A stretch of 64,000 nt of DNA from Rubrobacter tropicus (GTDB lineage Bacteria > Actinomycetota > Rubrobacteria > Rubrobacterales > Rubrobacteraceae). A program made the translations under genes and the position numbers. Of this stretch, positions 34,808 through 59,441 are shown piece by piece. Numbering within the stretch: the first letter of the stretch is position 1; every line of letters starts with the position of its first letter. The notes beneath the pieces are model-generated. The model was not told the DNA's origin and ran no database searches. It worked only from the letters and a program-made list of their open reading frames with translations. The stretch covers positions 1,426,001-1,490,000 of the forward strand of contig NZ_CP045119.1 of NCBI RefSeq assembly GCF_011492945.1, in the 5' to 3' direction.

Positions 34808-35737
34808 GGGTATGCGCGCTAGCGGGCGGGGTCGGCGGGGCGAAGCTCTCGGTCGGCCTGCAAGACGCCCTGGAACCCGGTGGGCTGTCCGTGGTGGTCA
34901 ACACCGCCGACGACTTCGAGCCGTGGGGCCTGCGCGTCTGCCCGGACCTGGACACCGTCATGTACACCCTGGCCGGCGTCGCCAACCCCGAGACCGGCTG
35001 GGGGCTCGCCGGCGAGTCGTTCGCCGCCCTGGAGGCCCTGGCCGGCTACGGCGAAGACACGTGGTTCAAGCTCGGCGACAAGGATCTCGCGACCCACGTC
35101 CTGAGGACCCAGAGGCTCCGCGCGGGCCACACGCTGACGGGGGTGACGGGCGGGTTGTCGCGCGCGCTGGGCATCCCCGGCGCCATCCTCCCGATGTGCG
35201 ACGAGAAGGTCTCGACGGTGCTCAAGACGCCGGCCGGCCTGCTCGAGTTCCAGGAGTACTTCGTGCGCAGGCGCCAGCGGGACGAGGTACTCGGCGTCGA
35301 GCTCAGGGGATAGAGGACGCCAGGCTAACCGGAGCGGCCCTCGAAGCCATTGCCGGGGCCGACGTCGTCGTGTTCTGTCCGTCGAATCCGGTGGTGAGCC
35401 TCGGCCCGATCCTGTCGGTCCCGGGATGCGCGAGGCGCTCGCCGCCGCCCGGCGCCGAAGGTGGCCGTCAGCCCGATAGTTGGGGGCAAGGCCCTGAAAG
35501 GCCCGGCCGACAGGATGCTCTCGTCCCTCGGCCACGAGGTCTCCGCCACCGGCGTCGCAGCCCTTTACGAGGGCCTCATCGACGGCATGGTCGTGGACCT
35601 TGCCGACGAGGGGAGAGGGAGGACATCGAGCGACTCGGGACGCGCGTCCTCGTGACGGACGCCGTCATGGGGCCGGTCCGGACCGCGAGCGGCTCGCGCG
35701 GGAGGTCCTCGACTTCGGCGCCGGACTCCGGGCGTGA
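34804..35737 (+). pseudogene. cofD: 2-phospho-L-lactate transferase CofD/FbiA, frame broken five times
   Basis: Starts RVCALAGGVGGAKLSVGLQD, the CofD signature, then VVVNTADDFEPWGLRVCPDLDTVMYTLAG, KLGDKDLATHVLRTQRL, and PMCDEKVSTVLKT...LEFQEYFVRRRQ. From 35306 the frame shifts repeatedly; restoring one base at G runs near 35306, 35423, 35451, 35610 and 35669 gives ADVVVFCPSNPVVSLGPIL, VAVSPIVGGKALKGPADRML, GTRVLVTDAVMG and a C-terminus LDFGAGLRA. The repaired protein of about 312 residues transfers the phosphoenolpyruvyl or lactyl phosphate group onto Fo to make (dehydro-)F420-0. The breaks are probably assembly errors, since F420 use is evident elsewhere in the window. Confidence 0.85.
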
Positions 35738-36347
35738 CGGACTCCGCAGGCGGGGCGTCTACGTCGTCGTGCCGGTAAAGGACCTGAGCGGCACCAAGAG
35801 CCGTCTCGCGCCCGTGCTCGACCCCGCCGCCCGCGCCGGGCTGACGCTGTACATGATGGGCCGCGTCGTCTCGCGGGCGCGGGAGGCGGGCCTGGAGAAC
35901 GTCGGGGTGGTCAGCCCCGACCCGATCGTGCTGGACGAGGCCCTCAAGCGCGGCGCCACGCCGCTCGCGCAGAAGAGCCGGGGCCTGAACCCGGCCCTGG
36001 AGGAAGGCCGCCTGTGGGCGACCAAGAACGGCGCCTCGGCCCTGCTCGTGCTCCCGGCCGACCTGCCCCTGATCGAGGCCGCAGACGTCAGGGACGTGCT
36101 CGCCGAGGCCGCGGACGGGTCGCCGGTGGTCATCTCGCCCGACGGCGCCCGCTCCGGCACGAACGCCCTGCTCCTCAGGCCGCCGGACGCCCTGCCCTTC
36201 CTCTTCGGCCCCGACAGCTTCGAGGCGCACCTGAAGGCGGCCCGCGACCTGGACGCGGAGGCGCGGGTCTGCGAGAACCAGCACATCTCCTTCGACCTCG
36301 ACACGGCAGGGGACCTGGCGGCGTACAGGGGAGAGGGTCGGCCGTGA
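35734..36347 (+). CDS. cofC: 2-phospho-L-lactate/phosphoenolpyruvate guanylyltransferase CofC/FbiD
   Basis: About 205 residues. The body begins GVYVVVPVKDLSGTKSRLAPVL, the nucleotide-binding start of CofC, and carries VVSPDPIVLDEA, LVLPADLPLIEAADV (the metal-binding DLPL motif), and SFDLDTAGDLAAY. It activates phospholactate or PEP with GTP for CofD. The likely start is a GTG overlapping the cofD stop, but one base seems lost at the G run near 35752, so the first residues are out of frame; the in-frame GTG at 35769 is a poorer alternative. Its stop overlaps cofE. Confidence 0.85.
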
Positions 36348-37087
36348 AGGGGATACAGCTCGTACCCGTCGAGGGCTTTCCCGAGATCCGGCCGGGCGAC
36401 GACCTGGACGCCCTGATCTCGGCTGCCGTGGAAGATACTTTGCGTTCCAGGGACATCCTCGTCGTGACGCACAAGATCATGAGCAAGGCCGAGGGCCGGC
36501 TCGTGGACCTGAACACCGTCGAGCCCTCCGCCCTGGCGAAGGGGTACGCGGCCCGGTGGGGCAAGGACCCGCGCCAGATCGAGGTCGTCTTTCGCGAGAG
36601 CCGCCGCGTCGTGCGCATGGACCGCGGCGTCGTCATCTCCGAGACCCACCACGGCTTCGTCTGCGCCAACGCCGGCGTCGACGCCTCCAACGTCCCGGGC
36701 GAAGACACCGTCTGCCTCCTCCCGGTAGACCCGGACAGGAGCGCGGCGAGACTGCGCGAGGCCCTGGCCCAAAAGCTCGGCGTGGAGGCGCCCGTCGTCG
36801 TCTCGGACTCGTTCGGGCGGGCTTGGCGCTTCGGCATAACGGATATCGCCATCGGCGTCGCCGGCATGGGCCCGCTGGCCGACTACCGCGGCCAGAACGA
36901 CCCGCACGGCTACCCGATGGAGGCCAGCGTTCTCGCCGTCGCCGACGAACTCGCCGCCGCCGCCGAGCTCGTGATGGGCAAGACCGACGGTGTCCCCCTC
37001 GCCATCGTCCGCGGCTACGCCTACGAAAAGGGCGCCGGCACGGGAAAAGACCTGCTCATGCCGCCCGAGAGGGATATGTTTAGGTAG
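36344..37087 (+). CDS. cofE: Coenzyme F420:L-glutamate ligase CofE
   Basis: 247 residues with a GTG overlapping the cofC stop. The order of conserved blocks is right: IQLVPVEGFPEIRPGDDL, ILVVTHKIMSKAEGR, GVVISETHHGFVCANAGVDASN, VVVSDSFGRAWRFGITDIAIG and MGKTDGVPLAIVRGY. It adds gamma-linked glutamates to F420-0 using GTP. This is the single-domain form; the nitroreductase domain that is fused to it in mycobacterial FbiB is missing here, but a similar domain occurs in the fused gene at 51443. It closes the NUDIX-cofD-cofC-cofE operon. Confidence 0.95.
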   Translation: MKGIQLVPVEGFPEIRPGDDLDALISAAVEDTLRSRDILVVTHKIMSKAEGRLVDLNTVEPSALAKGYAARWGKDPRQIEVVFRESRRVVRMDRGVVISETHHGFVCANAGVDASNVPGEDTVCLLPVDPDRSAARLREALAQKLGVEAPVVVSDSFGRAWRFGITDIAIGVAGMGPLADYRGQNDPHGYPMEASVLAVADELAAAAELVMGKTDGVPLAIVRGYAYEKGAGTGKDLLMPPERDMFR

Positions 37088-37200: not shown

Positions 37201-37445
37201 CTGGGGGGCTCTTCTTGACCGGCGTTTCGGGGTGGGGGTAGGATGGGCGGCATGACGATTCTTTCGTAGGCGGTGGAGATGGGGGCGAGGGGGTGCGGTT
37301 CCCTCCGGCTCCGCCGTACTTCCGTTAGCCCGTGCCCGGTTCTGCGCTGGGTTGGTTCGGGCCTTTAGGTTGGTAAGGGCGCGTTTCGCCCCACGGGTGG
37401 TGAACCGTGGATCGGCGAGGCTTGTGCGAAGAGGGCGGGATCTTT
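37201..37445 (+). promoter_or_regulatory. Promoter and long leader upstream of the MFS gene
   Basis: TTGACC (37215-37220) and TAGGAT (37239-37244) are spaced by 18 bases. The ATG at 37252 lies at the expected transcription start and opens a five-codon leaderless frame (M-T-I-L-S, stop at 37267-37269). The following 150 or so bases have several short G/C-rich palindromes but no riboswitch I recognise. No other gene is present. Confidence 0.4.
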
Positions 37446-38675
37446 GTGAACGGTTTTAGGGCTTATCCGGTGTACCTCGGTATCAAGGGGGCGTTCGCAC
37501 TCTTTTTCATGTTGTGGGCTACCGTGGCTTCCGTTTACAGGATCGAGGAGGTGGGCCTGGACCCCTTGCGGCTCGTGCTGCTCGGCACGGCGCTTGAGGT
37601 CGCGGTGCTCGTCTTCGAGGTGCCCACCGGGGTGCTCGCGGACACCTACGGGCGGAGGCGTTCCGTCATCGTGGGGTTCTTGTTGATGGGGTCGGGCTTC
37701 GCGCTCGAAGGTGCCGTTCCGACTTTCGCGGCCGTGCTCGTGGCGCAGGCGGTGTGGGGGGTTGGGTACACGTTTATCAGCGGGGCCCTGGAAGCCTGGA
37801 TCGCGGACGAGGCCCCCGAACGGAACCTAGGGCGGGTCTACCTGCGGGGCGAGCAGGCGGATTACGCGGGATCGCTCCTCGGCGTTATCCTTAGCGTGGC
37901 CTTCGCGACTTACGCCCTGAACCTGCCGCTCCTTCTCGGAGGCTTCCTCACCGTCGGGCTCGCCGTCGCGCTCTTTTTCGTTATGCCGGAGCGGAACTTC
38001 GACCCCTCGCCGCGCGAGGGGCGGACTTCCTTGCAGCAGGTGCGGGCCACGGCGCGGGGCGGGGTTCGGCTGGTGCGGGCCCGTCCGGTGCTCCTGATCC
38101 TGCTCTCCGTCGCCGTCTTTACCGGCATGTCCGAGGAGGGCTTCGACCGCCTCTACGCGAAGCACTTTCTGGACGGCCTCGGGCTCCCGTCCCTGGGCGC
38201 CCTTGATTCCGTGGTCTGGTTCGGGATCATAAACGCTGGAGCCTTGATTTTGAGCTACCTCGCCGCCGAGGTCGTCGGCCGCAGGCTGAACGTGGGGGAC
38301 CCGGCCGTCGTCGCCCGCCTGCTGCTCGTCTTGAACGCCTGCATGATCCTGGGTACGCTCTCCTTCGCCCTCGCGGGAAGCTTCGCGTTCGCGCTGGCGG
38401 CGTTCTGGTTCGCGAGCCTCGCCAGAACCCTCGCCGAGCCGCTCTACCTGACGTGGCTCAACGAGGGGTTGGAGCCCGGTATCCGGGCCACCGTAATCTC
38501 GATGGGCAGCCAGGCCGGAGCCTTCGGCGAGGCCTCCGCCGGACCCGTGATCGGGGCAATAGGCAACCTGGCAGGCGTCCGCACCGCCCTCACCGTCGCC
38601 TCCATCATCCTCTCCCCGGCCCTCCTGCTCTACGCCCGCGCCATCCGTCACCAGGGCAACCCGGACGCCAAATAG
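37446..38675 (+). CDS. MFS transporter
   Basis: About 409 residues with twelve likely helices. The loop between helices 2 and 3 reads VPTGVLADTYGRRRSVIVG, the major facilitator signature (G-x-L-A-D-x-x-G-R-R). VFEVPTGVLAD and the C-terminal ISMGSQAGAFGEASAGPVIGAIG match drug-efflux-like members of the family. The substrate is unknown. The GTG at 37446 has an upstream GAGGGCGGG; a GTG at 37407 would add 13 residues. It precedes the sulfur operon but has its own promoter and is probably unrelated. Confidence 0.85.
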   Translation: MNGFRAYPVYLGIKGAFALFFMLWATVASVYRIEEVGLDPLRLVLLGTALEVAVLVFEVPTGVLADTYGRRRSVIVGFLLMGSGFALEGAVPTFAAVLVAQAVWGVGYTFISGALEAWIADEAPERNLGRVYLRGEQADYAGSLLGVILSVAFATYALNLPLLLGGFLTVGLAVALFFVMPERNFDPSPREGRTSLQQVRATARGGVRLVRARPVLLILLSVAVFTGMSEEGFDRLYAKHFLDGLGLPSLGALDSVVWFGIINAGALILSYLAAEVVGRRLNVGDPAVVARLLLVLNACMILGTLSFALAGSFAFALAAFWFASLARTLAEPLYLTWLNEGLEPGIRATVISMGSQAGAFGEASAGPVIGAIGNLAGVRTALTVASIILSPALLLYARAIRHQGNPDAK

Positions 38676-38890: not shown

Positions 38891-39637
38891 ATGCCTGAAG
38901 CCCTGCGTTTCCAGCAAGACAAGACAATACTGCCAGACCCCGAGGGTCTCGACCTCGAGTCGAACCGGCTCGAAGGGTCGGACCCGAGGGAGATCATCCA
39001 GTGGGCCGTCGAGACTTACGGCGACGGGTTGGCCCTCTCGGCCTCCTTCGGGGGCGGGGAGGGGATGGCGCTCCTCGACATGATCTCCAAGATCACGAAC
39101 AAGGTTACCGTCCTCACCATCGACACCGGCTTTATCTTCAAGGAGACCGCGGAGTTTCGTGAGGAGGTCATGCGCCGGTACAAGCTGCCGGTCGAGGTTT
39201 TGAAGCCTGCGCTCTCGATCGAGGAGCAGGTCGAGCGCTACGGGGATCAGATGCGCACCTGCACGCCCGACCTTTGCTGCCAGATCCGCAAGATAGAGCC
39301 GCTCCAGAGGGCGCTCTCCCGCTACGACGCCTGGATGACCGGCATCCGCAGGGTCCAGACGCCCCAGCGGGCGAACACGAAGATCGCCGCCTGGGAGGAG
39401 CGCTACGGCGCCGCCAAGATAGCGCCGCTGGCGGGTTGGACGGACGAGCAGGTCTGGAACTACGTCCGCGAGCACGACGTCCCCGTCAACCCGCTGCTGC
39501 ACCAGGGCTACAAGAGCATCGGCTGCGAGCCCCAGACGAGGCCCGTCCACGACGACGAGGACCCGAGGGCCGGCCGCTGGTCCGGCACGGAGAAGACCGA
39601 GTGCGGCCTTCACTGGGTCAGCGCCGCCGGTTCGTAA
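38891..39637 (+). CDS. cysH: Adenylyl-sulfate (APS) reductase
   Basis: 248 residues from ATG 38891 with GGAGG. It reduces APS to sulfite with thioredoxin. LALSASFGGGEGMALLDMI is the P-loop-like SGGK-type start, followed by TVLTIDTGFIFKET. The iron-sulfur pair is C129-C130 in PDLCCQIRK, and the catalytic cysteine C238 is in KTECGLH. In typical APS reductases the second pair is C-x2-C; here it reads GCEPQT, so C212 is present but Q215 replaces the fourth ligand. The CC pair still points to APS rather than PAPS. First gene of the operon, agreeing with sat and cysC downstream. Confidence 0.9.
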   Translation: MPEALRFQQDKTILPDPEGLDLESNRLEGSDPREIIQWAVETYGDGLALSASFGGGEGMALLDMISKITNKVTVLTIDTGFIFKETAEFREEVMRRYKLPVEVLKPALSIEEQVERYGDQMRTCTPDLCCQIRKIEPLQRALSRYDAWMTGIRRVQTPQRANTKIAAWEERYGAAKIAPLAGWTDEQVWNYVREHDVPVNPLLHQGYKSIGCEPQTRPVHDDEDPRAGRWSGTEKTECGLHWVSAAGS

Positions 39638-39689: not shown

Positions 39690-41321
39690 ATGCGTTTTCT
39701 CAGGGAGGGCCAGACCCTCAACAAGGTTGAGCAGATAAAGCTCCAGCGCCACCCGCTGGAGGTCAAGCAGGCGATAATAGACACCTACTCCGAAGACCTC
39801 TCCAGGATGGACGAGGTTCCTGGTGAGGTCGAGCGCCTGAAGTGGGTAGGCATCTACCCGCAGAAGCAGGGCGGCGACGCCTTTATGATGCGCGTGAAGG
39901 TGCCCGGCGGCGTCCTGACGCCGGAGCAGACGAAGGTCATAGGCAAGATCGCCTCGGACTTCGCAAACGGCCCCATATCGAACCCCCACTTCGGCAACAA
40001 CTTCCTCGACATCACCACCCGCCAGGACGTCCAGATGCACTGGCTCAAGATGGGTGACATACCGGAGGTCTGGCGCAGGCTCGAAGAGGCCGGCATAACC
40101 ACCGTGCAGGCGTGCGGAGATTCCGCGCGCAACGTCCTCTGTTGTCCCGTCTCCGGCCTCGACCACGAGGAAGTCATAGACGCCTACCCGATAGCGCAGG
40201 CCATAAGCGACTACTTCACCGGCAACCGCGAGTACGCGAACCTGCCGCGGAAGTTCAAGATGAGCGTCACGGGGTGTCTGGAGGACTGCGCCCAGGCCGA
40301 GATCAACGACATAGGCCTCCTGCCCGCGCGCCTGGAGGACGGGACCATCGGCTTCAACCTCCGCGTCGGGGGCGGGCTGTCTGATGGGCCGCGGATGGCG
40401 TCCGACATAGACGTCTTCGTCAGGCCGGAGGAGGCCGTGGAGATCACGCGCGGCATAGCCCAGGTCTTTGGCGAGCTCGGCGACCGCGAGAACCGCTGGA
40501 CGGCCCGTATGCGCTACCTGGTCCAAAGAATAGGCCCCGAGGCCTTCCGCGACGAGCTCGAGAAGCGAGTCTCCGTCGAGCTCACGCCGGCCGGCGAGGA
40601 CCTGACCAAGCGGTACCGCGGCGACCACGTCGGCGTCCACGCCCAGAAGGACGGGCTTTTCTACGTGGGGCTCAACGTCCCCGTTGGCCGGATGAGCGGG
40701 GAACACTTTGTGGAGGCGGGGCGTCTCGCCGAGGAGTACGGCGGCGAGGTGCGGCTGGCGACGGACCAGAACCTGGTAATAACGGGCGTCCCCGAGGATA
40801 AGATCGACGACCTGCTCGCCGAGCCGCTGTTGGAGAGGTTCTCGCCCAAGCCCGGGGCCTTCGAGCGGGGTGTCGTTGCCTGCACGGGGAGCGAGTTCTG
40901 CCGGTTTGGGATAGTGGAGACCAAGATCCGGGCCGTCGAGTGGGCGAAGGAGATGGACGAGCGCGTGGGCGACGTCGGCCAGGACGCGGTTCGGATGCAC
41001 TTCTCGGGCTGCTCGGCTTCCTGCGCCCAGCCCCAGATAGGTGACGTCGGGTTCCGCGGCGAGACGGCCAAGACCCAGACCTCCATAGTCGAGGGCGTAG
41101 ACATCGGGCTTGGCGGATCCCTCGGCCGAGACGCCGCGTTTATAGACTGGGTCGAGGGGGCTAAGCCCGCCGAAGAGGTCCCCGACGCGCTCGTCTCGGT
41201 CTTCGAGCGTTTCAAGGAGGAGGGGCGACCCGGCGAGCGGTTCCACGAGTGGGCCCGGCGCAAGAAGAACAAAGAGCTGCGCGAGGCGTTGCGCAAGCCC
41301 GCGAAGGTGGGGGGCCGCTAG
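39690..41321 (+). CDS. Siroheme sulfite (or nitrite) reductase
   Basis: 543 residues. The C-terminal half has the siroheme/[4Fe-4S] ligand set: C398 and C404 in CTGSEFCRFGIVETK, and C441 and C445 in FSGCSASCAQPQIGDVG. The N-terminal half has a comparable group (C142, C151, C152, C196, C200) in CGDSARNVLCC and VTGCLEDCAQAEINDIG, reflecting the internal duplication of the family but with more cysteines kept than usual. It should reduce sulfite to sulfide with six electrons. Its TAG shares one base with the start of the FrhB-like gene, and the position between cysH and sat argues for sulfite rather than nitrite. Confidence 0.88.
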   Translation: MRFLREGQTLNKVEQIKLQRHPLEVKQAIIDTYSEDLSRMDEVPGEVERLKWVGIYPQKQGGDAFMMRVKVPGGVLTPEQTKVIGKIASDFANGPISNPHFGNNFLDITTRQDVQMHWLKMGDIPEVWRRLEEAGITTVQACGDSARNVLCCPVSGLDHEEVIDAYPIAQAISDYFTGNREYANLPRKFKMSVTGCLEDCAQAEINDIGLLPARLEDGTIGFNLRVGGGLSDGPRMASDIDVFVRPEEAVEITRGIAQVFGELGDRENRWTARMRYLVQRIGPEAFRDELEKRVSVELTPAGEDLTKRYRGDHVGVHAQKDGLFYVGLNVPVGRMSGEHFVEAGRLAEEYGGEVRLATDQNLVITGVPEDKIDDLLAEPLLERFSPKPGAFERGVVACTGSEFCRFGIVETKIRAVEWAKEMDERVGDVGQDAVRMHFSGCSASCAQPQIGDVGFRGETAKTQTSIVEGVDIGLGGSLGRDAAFIDWVEGAKPAEEVPDALVSVFERFKEEGRPGERFHEWARRKKNKELREALRKPAKVGGR

Positions 41322-42520
41322 TGGCGGGTTTCGACATCCGGGAGATGATGAACGACATCGACGAGGCCCCCGGGAAGGTCTGGTTCTGGGATTTGGAGCA
41401 GGCCGTCATCGACGCCGACCGCTGCGTGCAGTGCGGCGTGTGCGTGGCGGCGTGCCCGACCGACTCCATCGGGATCGGCTCGGACGACCTGCCGGAGCTC
41501 GTCAAGATGTGCACCGGCTGCTCTTTGTGCTGGGACTTCTGCCCTAGAGGCGGCCTGCAGTACGAGGCGACGTGGAAGATCTCGGGCAACGGCAACGGCC
41601 ACAGGGGCAACGGCCTCGGGCACGTCGAGGAGAGCTACACGGCGAAGGTGGACCCGGCCATAGAAGGCGTCCAGGACGGCGGGTTCGTGAGCGCGCTCCT
41701 GATCTCGCTTCTGGAGAACGACGAGATAGACGGCGCCCTGTTGGCCCGCGAGAGCGAGACCGAACGTTGGAAGGGCGAGGCGTTCCTTGCCACGACTCCG
41801 GAAGAAGTCCGCGAGTGCGCCGGCAGCTTCTATAACCAGACGCTTGCCTTGGGCCACGTGGACTTCAAGGGCTACGACCTGCCGCCGAACCCGCGGATAG
41901 CCGTCGTCGGCACGCCGTGCGAGATCGAGGGCATAAAGGCCATGCAGGCGAGGCCGTGGACCTGGGGCACCTCGCAGGTGGAGGCGATCACGCTGACCAT
42001 CGCGCTTCTGTGCACCAAGAGCTTCAACTACGAGAAGCTGATGCTGGAGGAGATCCGGGACAAGCGCGGCGTGGATCTGGACAACGTCGGGCGGGTGGAC
42101 ATCATCCGCGGCAAGATGATCGTGCAGGACCTGGAAGGCGAGTCTATCTTCGAGGAGCCGATCCGGGACTTCCACAACGCCGCCCTGAAGGGCTGCGACG
42201 AGTGCGCGGACTTCATGGGCCACGCGGCGGACATCTCCGTCGGCAGCGTCGGCAGCGCGGACGGCTACTCCAGCGTGCTGGTCCGTTCGGAGGAGGGCAG
42301 GGTTGCCTTCGAGCACGTAAGAGACCGTTTGTTAACCCGGCCGCTTGACAAACCGCAGGCATTGGATAAGCTTGACGCTTTGGACAAGAGGGTGGCCTTT
42401 AGCACCTTGAAGCGGGCCTTCGACCCCGACGCCCCGCTCTTTATAGACTTTGAGGACCACCTGAACGACTACGCCGGGACGGACCGCGCCCCGGTCGAGC
42501 ACGAAGCGGTGAGGTATTGA
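41321..42520 (+). CDS. F420 hydrogenase/dehydrogenase beta-subunit (FrhB/FpoF-like) with two [4Fe-4S] motifs
   Basis: 399 residues from a GTG that shares a base with the sulfite reductase stop. Two ferredoxin motifs come first: C35, C38, C41, C45 and C64, C67, C70, C74. A Gly/Asn-rich linker (SGNGNGHRGNGLGH) leads to the FrhB domain: VQDGGFVSALLISLLENDEIDGAL, VVGTPCEIEGIKAMQ, LCTKSFNY and CDECADFMGHAADISVGSVG. This class binds FAD and F420 and passes electrons from F420H2 through iron-sulfur clusters. Placement next to the reductase suggests F420H2 is its electron donor, as in the methanogen protein Fsr, where both parts are one chain. Confidence 0.88.
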   Translation: MAGFDIREMMNDIDEAPGKVWFWDLEQAVIDADRCVQCGVCVAACPTDSIGIGSDDLPELVKMCTGCSLCWDFCPRGGLQYEATWKISGNGNGHRGNGLGHVEESYTAKVDPAIEGVQDGGFVSALLISLLENDEIDGALLARESETERWKGEAFLATTPEEVRECAGSFYNQTLALGHVDFKGYDLPPNPRIAVVGTPCEIEGIKAMQARPWTWGTSQVEAITLTIALLCTKSFNYEKLMLEEIRDKRGVDLDNVGRVDIIRGKMIVQDLEGESIFEEPIRDFHNAALKGCDECADFMGHAADISVGSVGSADGYSSVLVRSEEGRVAFEHVRDRLLTRPLDKPQALDKLDALDKRVAFSTLKRAFDPDAPLFIDFEDHLNDYAGTDRAPVEHEAVRY

Positions 42521-42829
42521 TTGGCACGCGCCCTGCAGAATCTCCCCCTGCGAGAAGAGCCCGTCGAGCTACGGGCCGAGACCCGCGCCCTGCTGGAGGA
42601 GTCGCCCGAGGAGGGCTCGCGGCTCATAGGTGAGGCGGCCTTCGTCGCCGACCTTCTCTGGGAGGACTGGGGGGAGACGCTCGAACCGAAAGGGATGGGC
42701 CGGGACCGCTTCGTCGAGATCTCGCGCGGCTACGCCGACGAGCTGAGGCTCTGGGTGGTCGGAGAACGTCCCTGGGACCACTGCGCGGCCGGGCTGGCCG
42801 GCCGCGTCAAACGCAGGCTACCGGCCTAG
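42521..42829 (+). CDS. Small conserved-looking protein of unknown function in the sulfur operon
   Basis: 102 residues from a TTG immediately after the FrhB-like stop, with GAGG eight bases upstream. It is acidic and helical, with [45 protein letters not shown] in the middle and [14 protein letters not shown] at the end; one cysteine. I recognise no family. Its position between the F420/sulfite module and sat suggests an accessory role for the reductase complex, such as assembly or a small subunit. Confidence 0.65.
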
Positions 42830-42858: not shown

Positions 42859-44058
42859 GTGACGACAGGCACCACGGAACACGGCATGATAGCCCCCCAC
42901 GGCGGCGAGCTAATCGACCGCCGCGCCCCCGAAGGCGAGAGGGACGACCTGCTCCAGAGGGCAGAGGGCCTCGCCAGGGTGACGCTAGGGCCGCGGGCGC
43001 TCTCCGACCTGGAGATGATCTCGACGGGTGTCTTCTCACCGCTTACGGGCTTCATGACCCGGGCCGACTACGATTCCGTGGTCGAGACGATGCACCTCGA
43101 GAACGGCCTCGTCTGGAGCCTCCCCATCACCCTCTCTGTGGACGACGCCGAAGCCGAGCCCATAAACGAGGGCGACGAGGTCGCGCTCGCCGACGGCGAA
43201 GGCCGCGTCCTCGCCACGATGGTCGTCGAGGACAAGTACTCCTACGACAAGGAGCGTGAGGCCAGGGAAGTCTTCGGCACCACGAACGACGAGCACCCCG
43301 GTGTCGCCGCCGTCTACCGCCAGAAGGACACCCTGATCGGGGGCGAGGTAACCCTCCTCGTGGACGACCCGAACCCGAAGCCCTTCCCCCAGTACCACTA
43401 CGAGCCGCGCGAGCTCCGCAAGGTCTTCGCCGAGAAGGGCTGGAAGCGCGTGGTCGGGTTCCAGACCCGCAACCCCGTCCACCGCTCCCACGAGTACATC
43501 CAGAAGAGCGCTCTGGAGATCGTTGACGGACTCCTGCTCAACCCCCTCGTCGGCGAGACCCGCGCAGAAGACATCCCGGCCGACGTCAGGATGCGCTCCT
43601 ACGAGGTCATCCTCGACAAGTACTACCCCAAAGATCGCACGCTCCTCGGCGTTTTCCCGGCTGCCATGCGCTACGGCGGGCCGCGCGAGGCGATCTTCCA
43701 CGCCGTCTGCCGCAAGAACTACGGCTGCACCCACTTCATAGTCGGGCGCGACCACGCGGGTCCCGGCAAGGACTCCAAGGGAAACCCGTTCTACGGTGAC
43801 TACGACGCCCAGCACATCTTCGACGAGTTCGAGGACGGCGAGATCGGGCTGACCCCCCTCTTCTTCGAGCACTCATTCTTCTGCCTGACCTGCCAGGGCA
43901 TGGGCACCACCAAGACCTGCCCCCACGACAAGGAGAACCACGTCTTCGTCTCCGGCACCAAGGTCCGCGAGATGCTCTCCAATGGCGAGTATCCTCCGCC
44001 GGAGTTCTCCCGCCCCGAGGTTATAGAGGTTCTCATGGAAGGCCAGAAAACCGCCTAG
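42859..44058 (+). CDS. sat: Sulfate adenylyltransferase
   Basis: 399 residues of the Sat (not CysDN) type, starting at a GTG with CGGAGGT. It makes APS from sulfate and ATP. Conserved blocks: [39 protein letters not shown] (Q-T-R-N-P-x-H-R-x-H, the ATP/sulfate site), [28 protein letters not shown] and [20 protein letters not shown] cluster [17 protein letters not shown] adds three cysteines that may bind zinc, as in several bacterial Sat proteins. It supplies APS to the reductase at the start of the operon. Confidence 0.95.
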
Positions 44059-44081: not shown

Positions 44082-44140
44082 CTAGCTGCGTTAGCAACAG
44101 CAAGCAACGACAAGTAACTGAAAGTAAAGGAGAGGTGAGA

Positions 44141-44710
44141 GTGGAGAACGGGAAGCGGCGTGGGGGATTCACGCTATGGTTCACCGGGTTGTCCGGGGCA
44201 GGGAAGACGACGATCGCCGAGATCGTGGAGCACGAGCTCCGGATGCGTCGCGTCAAGATCGAGGTCCTCGACGGGGACATCGTGAGGACGAACCTCTCCA
44301 AGGGCCTCGGTTTCAGCCGGGAGGACAGGGACACGAACGTTCTCCGCATCGGCTTCGTGGCGGATCTTCTGACGCGCAACGGCGTCGGCGTTATCGTCTC
44401 GGCCATCTCTCCCTTCAAGGAGGTTCGGGACCAGGTTAGGCGCAACGTGGGCGAGGGCTTCGTGGAGGTCTTCGTGGACGCGCCGCTCGACGTGTGCGCC
44501 GATCGGGACGTCAAGGGGCTGTACAAGAAGGCTTTCAGCGGCGAGATCCCGCAGTTCACCGGCGTCTCCGACCCCTACGAGGCCCCCGTCGCCCCCGAGC
44601 TCCACATAAAGACCAACGAGGAAGAGCCGGCCGAGAGCGCCGCGCGGGTCGTCAGGTACCTCGAGGAGCAGGGCTTCCTACAGCCCGTTCCGGAATTCAA
44701 CCGGGTCTAG
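44141..44710 (+). CDS. cysC: Adenylyl-sulfate kinase
   Basis: 189 residues. FTLWFTGLSGAGKTTIAEIVEHEL carries the Walker A motif, VLDGDIVRTNLSKGLGFSREDRD the APS-binding region, and VEVFVDAPLDVCADRDVKGLYKKAFSGEI the lid and product-binding loop of APS kinases. It makes PAPS from APS. A GTG at 44141 is eight bases from AAGGAG and is preferred over the GTG at 44135. Because the reductase here looks APS-specific, PAPS may serve sulfation rather than assimilation. It is followed by the exporter-like gene after one base. Confidence 0.95.
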   Translation: MENGKRRGGFTLWFTGLSGAGKTTIAEIVEHELRMRRVKIEVLDGDIVRTNLSKGLGFSREDRDTNVLRIGFVADLLTRNGVGVIVSAISPFKEVRDQVRRNVGEGFVEVFVDAPLDVCADRDVKGLYKKAFSGEIPQFTGVSDPYEAPVAPELHIKTNEEEPAESAARVVRYLEEQGFLQPVPEFNRV

Positions 44711-44711
44711 C

Positions 44712-45515
44712 ATGTTCGACGCCACCCCCACCCTCTTTGGCCTGCTCGTCGGTTTCCTGGTCGGCCTCACGGGGGTGGGGGGCGGCTCTCTGATGACGCC
44801 GTTTTTGGTTGCCGGGCTGGGGGTTCCGGCGCCCACGGCCGTCGGGACCGACATGGTCTTCGCCACCCTCACCAAGTTCACCGGCTCCGTGCAGCACTAC
44901 CGCCAGCGGTCGGTCAACCTGGAGGTGGCTTTGTTCCTCGGGTTCGGGAGCATCCCCGCGGGGTTGCTCGGGGTGGCGACGCTCGAGTGGATCGAGGGCG
45001 CCTTCGACCCCGAGACGGTGAAGTCCATCATGATCACCGTCATAGCCTGCACGCTCGTGTTGGTCGGCGCTTCCCTGATCTACCGCAACTACTTCATGCC
45101 GAATCGGGACGCCAGCCCCAAACCGCACGTCTGGGACGGCAAGACGAAGATGAGCACCAGGCGACGGGCCTACACGGTCGTCTTCGGCGCCTTCGGAGGC
45201 TACCTCGTCGGCCTGACGTCCATAGGCTCCGGCAGCGTGATGGCCGTGATACTGCTGCTGCTCTACCCGCTGGCCCCGGCCGTCGTGGTGGGCACGGACA
45301 TAGCCCACGCCACCGTACTCTCCCTGGTCGTCGGCCTCGCCCACATGACCCAGGGCAACGTGGACTTCGGCCTCGCGGGTTCCCTGCTCCTCGGCGGCAT
45401 CCCCGGCGTCCTTATCGGCAGCCGCATCGCCCCCTGGCTTCCAGGCAAACCGCTCAAGACGGTCCTCGCCGTCATGCTCATCTTCGTCGGCGTCCGCCTG
45501 CTTCTGACCTACTAA
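44712..45515 (+). CDS. TauE/SafE (DUF81) family sulfur-compound transporter
   Basis: 267 residues with about eight helices. FLVGLTGVGGGSLMTPFLV and YLVGLTSIGSGSVMAVILLLL are the two TauE signatures, related by internal duplication, and each half ends with a GTD-x-x-x-A-T helix (GTDMVFATL; GTDIAHATV). These permeases move sulfite, sulfonates or sulfate-related anions. As the last gene of the sulfur operon, starting one base after cysC, it could bring in sulfate or expel excess sulfite; the direction is not determinable from sequence. Confidence 0.9.
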   Translation: MFDATPTLFGLLVGFLVGLTGVGGGSLMTPFLVAGLGVPAPTAVGTDMVFATLTKFTGSVQHYRQRSVNLEVALFLGFGSIPAGLLGVATLEWIEGAFDPETVKSIMITVIACTLVLVGASLIYRNYFMPNRDASPKPHVWDGKTKMSTRRRAYTVVFGAFGGYLVGLTSIGSGSVMAVILLLLYPLAPAVVVGTDIAHATVLSLVVGLAHMTQGNVDFGLAGSLLLGGIPGVLIGSRIAPWLPGKPLKTVLAVMLIFVGVRLLLTY

Positions 45516-57083: not shown

Positions 57084-59441
57084 CTAGACGGAGCGTGCGC
57101 GTTCCGGCACGCCGTAGAGGGTGTTGCGGCGGCGGGGGGTGCGGCCTACGTCCCGGATCATGGCCTCCAGATCCGAAGGCGTCATCTCCTGGCCGTGGTC
57201 GGCGCCGGCGGCCCGGCTGATGCTCTCGTTCATCAGCGTGCCACCGAGGTCGTTGCAGCCGGCCTGCAGGCACGCCTTCGCGCCCTCGGCGCCGAGCTTC
57301 ACCCACGAGACCTGAACGTTGTCTATGTGGCCGTGGAGCGCGATCCTGCCTACCGCGTGCATCTTGACCGTCTCGGTGAAGGTGGGGCCCCTGCGGGAGC
57401 GGCCCTGCAAGTAGAGCGGGGCTCCCATGTGGACGAAGGGCAGCGGCACGAACTCCGTGAAGCCGCCCGTGTCGGCCTGTATGTCCCGCAGGACCATGAG
57501 GTGCCGCGCCCAGTTCGCGGGACCGTCGACGTGGCCGAACATGATGGTCGTCGTGGCGGAGAGCCCGATGCCGTGCGCCTTTCGCATCACCTCCGCCCAT
57601 TGGGCGGTGTTGATCTTGTCCGGGCAGATGATGGCCCGGATCTCATCGTCCAGGACCTCCGCCGCCGTACCGGGTAAGGTCCCGAGCCCGGCCTCCTTTA
57701 GCTCCACGAGGAACTTCTCGACAGATATGCCCAGGGTGCGCGCGCCCTGCCACACTTCGAGGGGCGTGAAGGCGTGGACGTGCATGTCGGGCACCTCGTC
57801 TTTTACGGCCCGCAGGTAATCTATGTAGTTCTTGCCCGTGAAGCTGCCGTGGATGCCGCCGACCATGCAGACCTCGGTGGCGCCCTTCTCCCACGCCTCC
57901 CGCGCCCTTCGGGCCACCTCGGCCGTGTCCAGGAGGTAAGGGTCGCCGCGCAGGTTGAGGGACTTCGGCCCCTTGGAGAAGGCGCAGAAGCGGCACCGGA
58001 AGTAGCACTGGTTCGTGTAGTTGATGTTCCGGTTCACGACGTAGGTGACCTCGTCGCCGTTGACCTCGCGCCTGAGCCCGTCGGCCACCCGGCAGAGCTC
58101 CTCGAACTCCGTCCCCCGCGCCGTGAAGAGCAGGGCTATCTCGTCCTCGCGCAGGTCCCTGGTCCCGGCGGCCGCGAGCGCCCTCGCGAAGTTGGGCCGC
58201 ACCTTCGAAGGGCGCAGACCCCTCGCCTCGGCAAGGACCTTCGCCGGCACGGGCTCCGTGGTGCCCGGCGCCCAGTCTTCGGTCCTGGCGAAGCCCTCGG
58301 CGTCCTGGGCGGACAAGACGCCGGGGCGGAGGCGTTCGTCCACCCAGGTTCCGGCGTCGCGGGCGTAGGAGGGGTGGAGGGCGAGTCGTTCGAGGAGCAG
58401 GTAGCCCTTTGCCTGGGTGGCCTTTTCGAGCTCTTCCAGGTGGGGCCAGGGGCGTTCGGGGTTGACGTGATCCGGGGTTACGGGGGAGACGCCGCCCCAG
58501 TCGTTTATGCCGGCGTCGATGTAGCGGGCGTAGGAGGGCGTGCCGTTGACCTCTAGACCGGCAAGGTTCGGGGGCGCCTGGACGGTAACGTCGGAAGGCA
58601 GAAGGAGGCGGGCCAGGGCTATGGTGGCGAGCATCTCGTCCTCGGTCGGCTCGGACCAGCCCGCCATGCGGGTGCCCGGCTTGGCGCGGAAGTTCTGGAC
58701 TATGCACTCCTGGATGTTGCCGTGGCGCTCGTGGAGGTCGCGGATGGCGAGGATCGTGTCGACCCGCTCCTCGACGGTCTCCCCGATCCCGATAAGGATT
58801 CCCGTCGTAAACGGAACCTTGAGCCTTCCCGCCCCTTCCATCGTCTTCAGGCGCTTGGCAGGGACCTTGTCCGGGGAGGCCCAGTGGGCGAGGTTCGGGC
58901 CGAGCAGCCGGTCGGAGGCCTGCTCCAGCATGATCCCCTGCGAGACCGAGACGGGCCTGAGATCCCGCACCTCCCCCGCCGAGAGGACCCCGGGATTCGC
59001 GTGCGGCAGTAACCCTGTCTCCTCCAGCACGAGCCGGCAGCAGTGGGCCAGGTACTCGATGGTCGTCCCGAAGCCCATCTCTCTCAGCTCGCGCCTGGCC
59101 TCGGGGTAGCGCTTCTCGGGCTTGTCCCCGAGCGTGAACAGGGCCTCCTTGCAGCCGGCCTCTGCGCCTGCCCTCGCGACCTCGAGGACTTCTCCGGGTG
59201 TCAGGAACGCTTTTTCGCCGGGGCGTGGGCCGTGGGCGAAGGTGCAGTAGCCGCAGTTGTCGCGGCAGAGCTTGGTGAGGGGGATGAAGACCTTGCGGGA
59301 ATATGTGATCCTCGGCCCGAAGGCCCGGTCGCGGACCTCGGAGGCCGCCTTCATGGCCGGTTCCGGGTCGGCGTAGGCCGCCCATGCCAGCTCGTAGATC
59401 CTCTCGCGCCTCTCTTCGTCGCCCATCAGCGCGTCTACCAA
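57084..59441 (-). CDS. fbiC: FO synthase, fused CofG-CofH
   Basis: 785 residues, the length of actinobacterial FbiC. It makes the 5-deazaflavin FO from tyrosine and a flavin precursor by two radical-SAM reactions. The first cluster motif is C59-R-D-N-C63-G-Y-C66 in the N-terminal (CofG) half; the second is C479-Y-F-R-C483-R-F-C486 in the CofH half. Other conserved parts are PGVLSAGEVRDLRPVSVSQGIMLEQ and HVHAFTPLEVWQGARTLGIS. A TTG at 59441 is preferred for its GGGGGT site; ATG 59426 is possible. It is separate from the cofDCE operon, as in many actinobacteria, and is the first step of the pathway. Confidence 0.95.
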   Translation of the reverse strand: MVDALMGDEERRERIYELAWAAYADPEPAMKAASEVRDRAFGPRITYSRKVFIPLTKLCRDNCGYCTFAHGPRPGEKAFLTPGEVLEVARAGAEAGCKEALFTLGDKPEKRYPEARRELREMGFGTTIEYLAHCCRLVLEETGLLPHANPGVLSAGEVRDLRPVSVSQGIMLEQASDRLLGPNLAHWASPDKVPAKRLKTMEGAGRLKVPFTTGILIGIGETVEERVDTILAIRDLHERHGNIQECIVQNFRAKPGTRMAGWSEPTEDEMLATIALARLLLPSDVTVQAPPNLAGLEVNGTPSYARYIDAGINDWGGVSPVTPDHVNPERPWPHLEELEKATQAKGYLLLERLALHPSYARDAGTWVDERLRPGVLSAQDAEGFARTEDWAPGTTEPVPAKVLAEARGLRPSKVRPNFARALAAAGTRDLREDEIALLFTARGTEFEELCRVADGLRREVNGDEVTYVVNRNINYTNQCYFRCRFCAFSKGPKSLNLRGDPYLLDTAEVARRAREAWEKGATEVCMVGGIHGSFTGKNYIDYLRAVKDEVPDMHVHAFTPLEVWQGARTLGISVEKFLVELKEAGLGTLPGTAAEVLDDEIRAIICPDKINTAQWAEVMRKAHGIGLSATTTIMFGHVDGPANWARHLMVLRDIQADTGGFTEFVPLPFVHMGAPLYLQGRSRRGPTFTETVKMHAVGRIALHGHIDNVQVSWVKLGAEGAKACLQAGCNDLGGTLMNESISRAAGADHGQEMTPSDLEAMIRDVGRTPRRRNTLYGVPERARSV

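Follow-up and report, generated by a model that had tools for sequence, protein, structure and literature searches.

We analysed a 64,000-nucleotide stretch of the Rubrobacter tropicus genome (contig NZ_CP045119.1, positions 1,426,001 to 1,490,000; hereafter the window), in which a sulfate-assimilation operon encodes a siroheme reductase (alpha), an FrhB-type flavoprotein (beta) and a 102-residue protein in direct succession. An original prediction, made from the sequence by eye, read alpha and beta as the two halves of an F420H2-dependent sulfite reductase. Its open reading frame (ORF) coordinates and strands, the one-base overlap of the two genes, the gapless third gene and the setting between cysH and sat were all reproduced by our ORF calls. 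The source genome comprises 4.58 Mb in two contigs, and homologues of the window at about 80–95% identity belong to Rubrobacter and Rubrobacteraceae genomes. All genes of the operon lie on the forward strand, in the order cysH, alpha, beta, 102-residue gene, sat, cysC and TauE/SafE permease. The features of the operon are, in positions of the window:

38891..39637, + strand: cysH, which opens the operon and encodes (P)APS reductase (PF01507 and NF002537 above cut-off)
39690..41321, + strand: alpha, predicted siroheme [4Fe-4S] sulfite reductase of SirA/NirA type, 543 amino acids (PF01077/PF03460), stop codon TAG at 41319-41321
40881..41024, + strand: siroheme-[4Fe-4S] motif of alpha, C398-X5-C404 ... 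C441-X3-C445, invariant in 118 of 118 aligned alpha sequences
41321..42520, + strand: beta, FrhB/Fsr-N type putative F420H2 dehydrogenase subunit, 399 amino acids (PF04422, PF04432, Fer4)
41423..41542, + strand: ferredoxin domain of beta with two predicted [4Fe-4S] clusters, C35, 38, 41, 45, 64, 67, 70 and 74 (Fer4 matches)
41918..42205, + strand: predicted ligands of a non-canonical third [4Fe-4S] cluster of beta, P-C200-X30-C231-X60-C292-X2-C295, invariant in homologues
42245..42250, + strand: S309-V310 in the GSVGS loop of beta, equivalent to S209-V210 of FrhB
42521..42829, + strand: small six-helix protein, candidate gamma subunit, 102 amino acids (AlphaFold2 model; downstream of beta in relatives)
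42859..44058, + strand: sat, ATP sulfurylase (PF01747 and NF003166 above cut-off)
44135..44710, + strand: cysC, APS kinase (PF01583 and NF002059 above cut-off)
44712..45515, + strand: TauE/SafE-family sulfite/sulfonate permease (PF01925)

The stop codon TAG of alpha and the start of beta overlap in a single G at 41321, since beta begins with GTG; the N-terminus read from this start, MAGFDIRE, is conserved among relatives. The small gene starts with TTG immediately after the TGA stop codon of beta. Alpha and beta occupy different frames and are not one polypeptide. A fusion of the two genes in some other genome was considered and set aside: the long open frames around beta, where checked, proved to be different frames, and no fusion was seen among them in a search that was not exhaustive. 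No riboswitch or other Rfam RNA was found near the operon.

Alpha contains the NIR_SIR and NIR_SIR_ferr domains (Pfam/NCBIfam) and, in the Pfam scan, no Fer4 domain. Its closest solved structures are plant nitrite reductase (NiR) and Mycobacterium tuberculosis NirA, with PDB matches of 1e-79 to 1e-95 to SirA/NirA and just 2e-10 to Fsr. The basic residues of the substrate pocket (R68, R147, K188 and K190) are invariant in the aligned alphas except for two end gaps. K190 aligns with Asn226 of tobacco NiR, and the N226K variant in the alignment has lysine there; we take lysine to be the residue that sulfite reductases carry at this position and asparagine to be specific to NiR. Judged by these residues, the pocket is of the sulfite type, and the sequence as a whole marks alpha as a predicted siroheme reductase of the assimilatory, SirA/NirA-like kind. 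No nitrite- or sulfite-reductase equivalog model of NCBIfam reaches its cut-off on alpha (the NiR model scores 444 bits with a cut-off of 594), and public records label the haloarchaeal alpha ‘ferredoxin--nitrite reductase'. Because the only other NIR_SIR protein of the source genome is NirB, alpha is its only candidate sulfite reductase.

Four further cysteines of alpha, C142, C152, C196 and C200 (40113-40289), are also invariant across the 118 sequences. We rejected the idea that they hold a second [4Fe-4S] cluster in the N-terminal half, acting as a beta-specific relay, as the same cysteines occur in SirA without beta: most of the nearer actinobacterial SirA lacking beta keep them and others (L156, L157) have lost them, so they are not specific to the pairing. 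They sit in the half of the reductase that is said to have lost its cluster, and many actinobacterial SirA (L151-L167), paired or not, retain them. In one genome (G243) a second, NirA-type sulfite/nitrite reductase is encoded directly upstream of the cysH-alpha-beta operon (L037:3843-5138).

At its N-terminus beta has a ferredoxin domain with two predicted clusters, and an FrhB domain comes after it; FrhB_FdhB_N/C score above the Pfam cut-offs alongside Fer4, and the Pfam scan found no nucleotide-binding domain in beta. The eight ferredoxin cysteines, which are invariant in bacterial and haloarchaeal homologues, had been correctly counted in the original prediction, but the cluster-type cysteines number 12 in total and the third, non-canonical cluster, with cysteines 200, 231, 292 and 295, had been missed. 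Comparable patterns are PC-X40-C-X54-C-X2-C for the non-canonical cluster 1 of Fsr (PMC10229431) and Cys104/134/192/195 for that of FrhB (PMC3591093), and we conclude that beta holds three predicted [4Fe-4S] clusters. The spacing from C295 to S309 and V310 (+14 and +15) is the same as from Cys195 to S209 and V210 in FrhB, where both residues adjoin F420 in the cryo-EM map (PMC3591093). The GSVGS loop is common to beta and several F420 enzymes; the FrhB-like protein of Parabacteroides has another, longer loop.

The five best PDB matches of beta are 8riu_B (8e-39), 7np8, 9tn7, 7npa and 8rja_E. Entries 8RIU and 8RJA represent subunits of F420-reducing CODH and formylmethanofuran dehydrogenase (Fwd), respectively, for which coupled F420 activity was demonstrated (PMC11493965). 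The match to HCAR (5dqr) is far weaker at 4e-5 and reveals no closer kinship to that enzyme. A Foldseek search with the model of beta, which we used for fold ranking alone, likewise listed F420 enzymes on top and HCAR below them. On this reading beta would bind both FAD and F420.

The original prediction had proposed a search for the gene pair across actinobacteria. We scanned 84,980 named species genomes and recovered 257 relatives, the best 80 of which (the named loci) come from Acidimicrobiaceae/Acidimicrobiales, other actinobacteria and Rubrobacter. The sir gene encoding alpha lies directly upstream of beta in 77 of these 80 loci, and in the remaining three either the contig ends there or beta is incomplete; a co-oriented cysH stands upstream in 60. 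Beta is present in 33 of 39 genomes of the window's class, and some 30 Rubrobacteria genomes repeat the gene order sir-frhB-small-sat. This recurrence, together with the adjacency in 77 of 80 loci, indicates that alpha and beta are not chance neighbours. In a second class, Acidimicrobiia, the distribution is patchy, as only six of 296 sampled genomes contain beta.

Beta is also encoded, at 46–54% identity, on haloarchaeal plasmids of Haloferax mediterranei (pHME505), Haladaptatus, Salinirubellus, Halopiger, Natronococcus and Halomontanus. In six of seven haloarchaeal cases sir is immediately upstream, often overlapping beta, and the pair persists outside any cys operon. Phylogenetic trees of alpha (outgroup, actinobacterial SirA) and of beta (outgroup, FrhB paralogues) each unite all paired sequences in one clade, with support of 0.993 and 0.992, respectively, and in both trees this clade is shared by the Rubrobacter-type and haloarchaeal pairs. 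Pairwise distances of alpha and beta correlate with r = 0.936, a value reached in 0 of 1,000 permutations; as species relatedness inflates r, this correlation reflects joint inheritance rather than physical contact.

FrhB proteins of other actinobacteria with about 33% identity were rejected as members of the beta family, since they form a separate clade and, in the ten loci inspected, have no sir beside them. Such stand-alone proteins (L040-L049), which combine FrhB and ferredoxin domains, are common in actinobacteria and occur in variable contexts. Variations on the paired arrangement were also seen. In Natronococcus and Halomontanus (L147:3556-5955 and L148:3338-5878) the sulfite reductase partner of beta has N-terminal rhodanese (sulfurtransferase) domains, and the Natronococcus pair adjoins nosZ. 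One Acidimicrobiaceae subgroup (L033:8877-12062) has the pair without cysH and without the small gene; there the pair is divergent from genes that, by eye only, resemble those of siroheme synthesis (precorrin-2 dehydrogenase and uroporphyrinogen methyltransferase).

The 102-residue protein belongs to no Pfam or NCBIfam family. AlphaFold2 models it as six helices with a predicted local distance difference test (pLDDT) score of 92.7, and fold searches gave no convincing hit (Foldseek E never below 4, VIA Z at most 5.1), a result that establishes neither a novel fold nor a function. Its gene directly follows beta in 71 of the 80 named loci and in 29 of 30 Rubrobacteria loci, the one exception (L005) ending at a contig edge. 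Among the 296 Acidimicrobiia-class genomes the protein occurs in four, all of them within the six that are beta-positive (Fisher p = 5e-8). It was not found beside the haloarchaeal pairs examined, nor in the Acidimicrobiaceae subgroup mentioned above. Among the positions that never vary are W47, W50, E74, L77-W78 and a C-terminal G-L-x-G-R-x-x-R-R; having no conserved cysteine, the protein would carry no cluster. It is probably a structural, docking or stability subunit specific to the bacterial form.

The claim that the window also encodes F420 synthesis holds for cofC, cofE and fbiC, all of which score above curated cut-offs, and is qualified by a frame-broken cofD. The corresponding features are:

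34816..35613, + strand: cofD, in three frame segments with one in-frame TAG; intact orthologues lie at the same place in other Rubrobacteria
35757..36347, + strand: cofC (TIGR03552 above cut-off)
36347..37087, + strand: cofE (TIGR01916 above cut-off)
57084..59441, - strand: fbiC, a cofG-cofH fusion, FO synthase (NF006687, TIGR03550 and TIGR03551 above cut-off)

Wherever both genes share a contig, FbiC lies 8–16 kb from beta (14 of 14 genomes), cofD 5–10 kb (10 of 10) and cofE 4–7 kb (4 of 4). In beta-positive genomes without FbiC above cut-off, cofE is mostly present. Two members of the F420-dependent glucose-6-phosphate dehydrogenase family encoded in the source genome score above cut-off and could serve as makers of F420H2; F420:NADP oxidoreductase was discarded as a source because its match is below threshold. 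Upstream of cysH lies a major facilitator superfamily transporter (37407-38675) that resembles the TetA(P)/Tet(40) efflux proteins (1e-100) and falls far below resistance cut-offs; a resistance function cannot be claimed for it.

We interpret the locus as a bacterial F420H2-dependent assimilatory sulfite reductase of two, and probably three, subunits, orthologous to the putative haloarchaeal aFsr, and we put the probability of this sequence-based reading at roughly 0.78. It is favoured because the nearest relatives of beta are proven F420 enzymes, because beta retains the cluster relay and the F420-contact loop, and because alpha and beta are co-inherited, F420 genes are linked and the genome has no candidate sulfite reductase other than alpha. 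The original prediction of an Fsr electron path divided between two proteins and turned to assimilation is the best reading of this evidence, but the locus is not simply Fsr cut in two: only the beta half is common to both, since alpha is of the SirA/NirA type and the reductase half of Fsr is Dsr-type. On sequence criteria the locus falls within the putative aFsr family, as a bacterial form augmented by a small protein; it is not an Fsr, two of whose defining features it lacks. We infer F420H2 as the donor, the formation of an alpha-beta complex and the role of the small protein. We also favour, with less confidence, the broader proposal that two actinobacterial classes assimilate sulfate through a three-subunit F420H2:sulfite oxidoreductase made up of alpha, beta and a helical gamma.

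In the proposed mechanism, Sat, CysC and CysH, encoded in the same operon, would carry out the steps that precede sulfite. F420H2 would then donate a hydride to the FAD of beta, from which single electrons would pass through the non-canonical [4Fe-4S] cluster to the two clusters of the N-terminal ferredoxin domain. This domain is predicted to dock on alpha at the site where SirA receives free ferredoxin, so that electrons would reach the siroheme-coupled [4Fe-4S] cluster of alpha, which would then convert sulfite to sulfide in a six-electron reduction and so feed cysteine synthesis.

Several observations weigh against the F420H2-dependent reading. In this assembly cofD is frame-broken while the genes beside it are intact, and the break reflects either indels of the assembly or recent pseudogenisation. 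Among the beta-positive genomes, G032 (79% complete) has neither cofE nor fbiC above cut-off. The FrhB fold is not confined to F420 enzymes, as it also occurs in the ferredoxin-linked HCAR (5dqr) and in bacteria not known for F420 (Parabacteroides). Lys75, on the FAD side of FrhB, is replaced by Phe170 in beta, a change that is not decisive because the proven F420 subunit 8riu_B has asparagine at this position. The model of beta is of low confidence (mean pLDDT 58), with the ferredoxin domain not modelled. Finally, no assay of any aFsr-family member was found in the open-licence literature.

Of the competing explanations, the one that fares best, though we consider it unlikely, is that beta is a ferredoxin-linked flavoprotein of the HCAR/BciB kind and that alpha and beta form a ferredoxin-dependent sulfite reductase with an additional flavin relay. 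The use of the FrhB fold by HCAR and the ferredoxin-SirA/NirA type of alpha would both fit. Yet SirA takes electrons from ferredoxin directly, which would leave the FAD domain superfluous, and beta matches F420 enzymes much more strongly than HCAR (8e-39 versus 4e-5), shares the GSVGS loop of Frh and Fsr and is encoded near F420 synthesis genes.

Decidedly less probable is an F420H2-using enzyme whose main substrate is nitrite. Group II Fsr of ANME-2c provides a precedent, being an F420H2 nitrite reductase according to PMC9295563; sulfite reductases generally reduce nitrite too, and the database name of the haloarchaeal alpha points the same way. These points are countered by the operon with cysH, sat and cysC, by the four-residue sulfite pocket with lysine at the NiR-specific asparagine position, by the genome's own NirB and by the 444-bit score, below the 594-bit cut-off of the NiR equivalog. 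Slightly more doubtful still is mere co-transcription, with alpha served by free ferredoxin, as its family works alone elsewhere, and with beta and the small protein acting at another point of sulfur metabolism; the mirrored trees of alpha and beta and the retention of the haloarchaeal pair outside cys operons, often as overlapping genes, argue against it. Least probable of all is the use of NADPH or NADH in place of F420H2, for although the FAD of beta expects a hydride donor and NADPH is usual in bacterial CysJI (whose CysI-type models are only distant matches to alpha), beta has no nucleotide-binding domain, no pyridine-nucleotide-dependent family member is among the solved relatives listed, and the F420 genes are linked.

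Should the F420H2-dependent reading be correct, F420 would feed the cell's only sulfite reductase and tie cysteine supply to this cofactor, extending its reach beyond detoxification and secondary metabolism and giving it a place in the central sulfur metabolism of aerobic bacteria. Assimilatory sulfite reductase would gain a further electron supply beside NADPH/CysJ, ferredoxin and the fused Fsr, and many ‘ferredoxin--nitrite reductase' database entries for alpha would need correction. The modular ferredoxin and FrhB subunit known from Fsr, CODH and Fwd would now be seen on SirA, and the picture would extend to bacteria. Cultured carriers such as Rubrobacter taiwanensis and Haloferax mediterranei make a direct test possible.

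The design itself has been described before; the original prediction knew of no described bacterial example. A two-subunit aFsr (alpha plus beta) was predicted in haloarchaea by Susanti and Mukhopadhyay in 2012, as the ‘first report for aFsr', and both Rxyl_0964, a protein from Rubrobacter xylanophilus, and Thermobaculum feature among the Fsr-N homologues in their tree (PMC3448663). In Heryakusuma et al. 2022 (PMC9295563), Rxyl and Tter appear in an alignment that includes an aFsr-beta group, and Rxyl is likely labelled aFsr-beta there. In the open-licence literature these two were the only relevant papers found on aFsr together with F420, and none describing the bacterial operon was found. 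What is new is the distribution in bacteria, the proposed third subunit and the finding that F420 genes are linked; the alpha-plus-beta design had already been predicted.

Compared with known systems, the locus is closest to the haloarchaeal aFsr, with which it shares an assimilatory-type siroheme reductase and a separate Fsr-N/FpoF-type subunit encoded side by side; the bacterial form differs in its cysH-sat-cysC operon, its flanking F420 synthesis genes and its conserved small third gene. In group I Fsr of Methanococcales (7np8, 7npa; PMC10229431), the N-terminal ferredoxin and F420H2-oxidase part resembles beta, including the non-canonical third cluster, and its six-electron reduction of sulfite is expected for alpha-beta too. 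That enzyme, however, is a single polypeptide whose Dsr-like reductase half bears an inserted two-cluster ferredoxin domain, whereas alpha is a separate SirA-type pseudo-dimer without the insert. The subunits 8riu_B and 8rja_E (PMC11493965) are, like beta, stand-alone ferredoxin and FrhB-domain proteins that dock on a partner oxidoreductase, as is predicted for beta, but their partners are CODH and Fwd and their electrons flow towards F420. M. tuberculosis SirA/NirA (1zj8) has the fold, siroheme motif and pocket of alpha. The ferredoxin-dependent SirA enzymes use free ferredoxin and have no flavoprotein partner. Alpha forms its own clade, with the gene for its putative partner adjacent in nearly every named locus.

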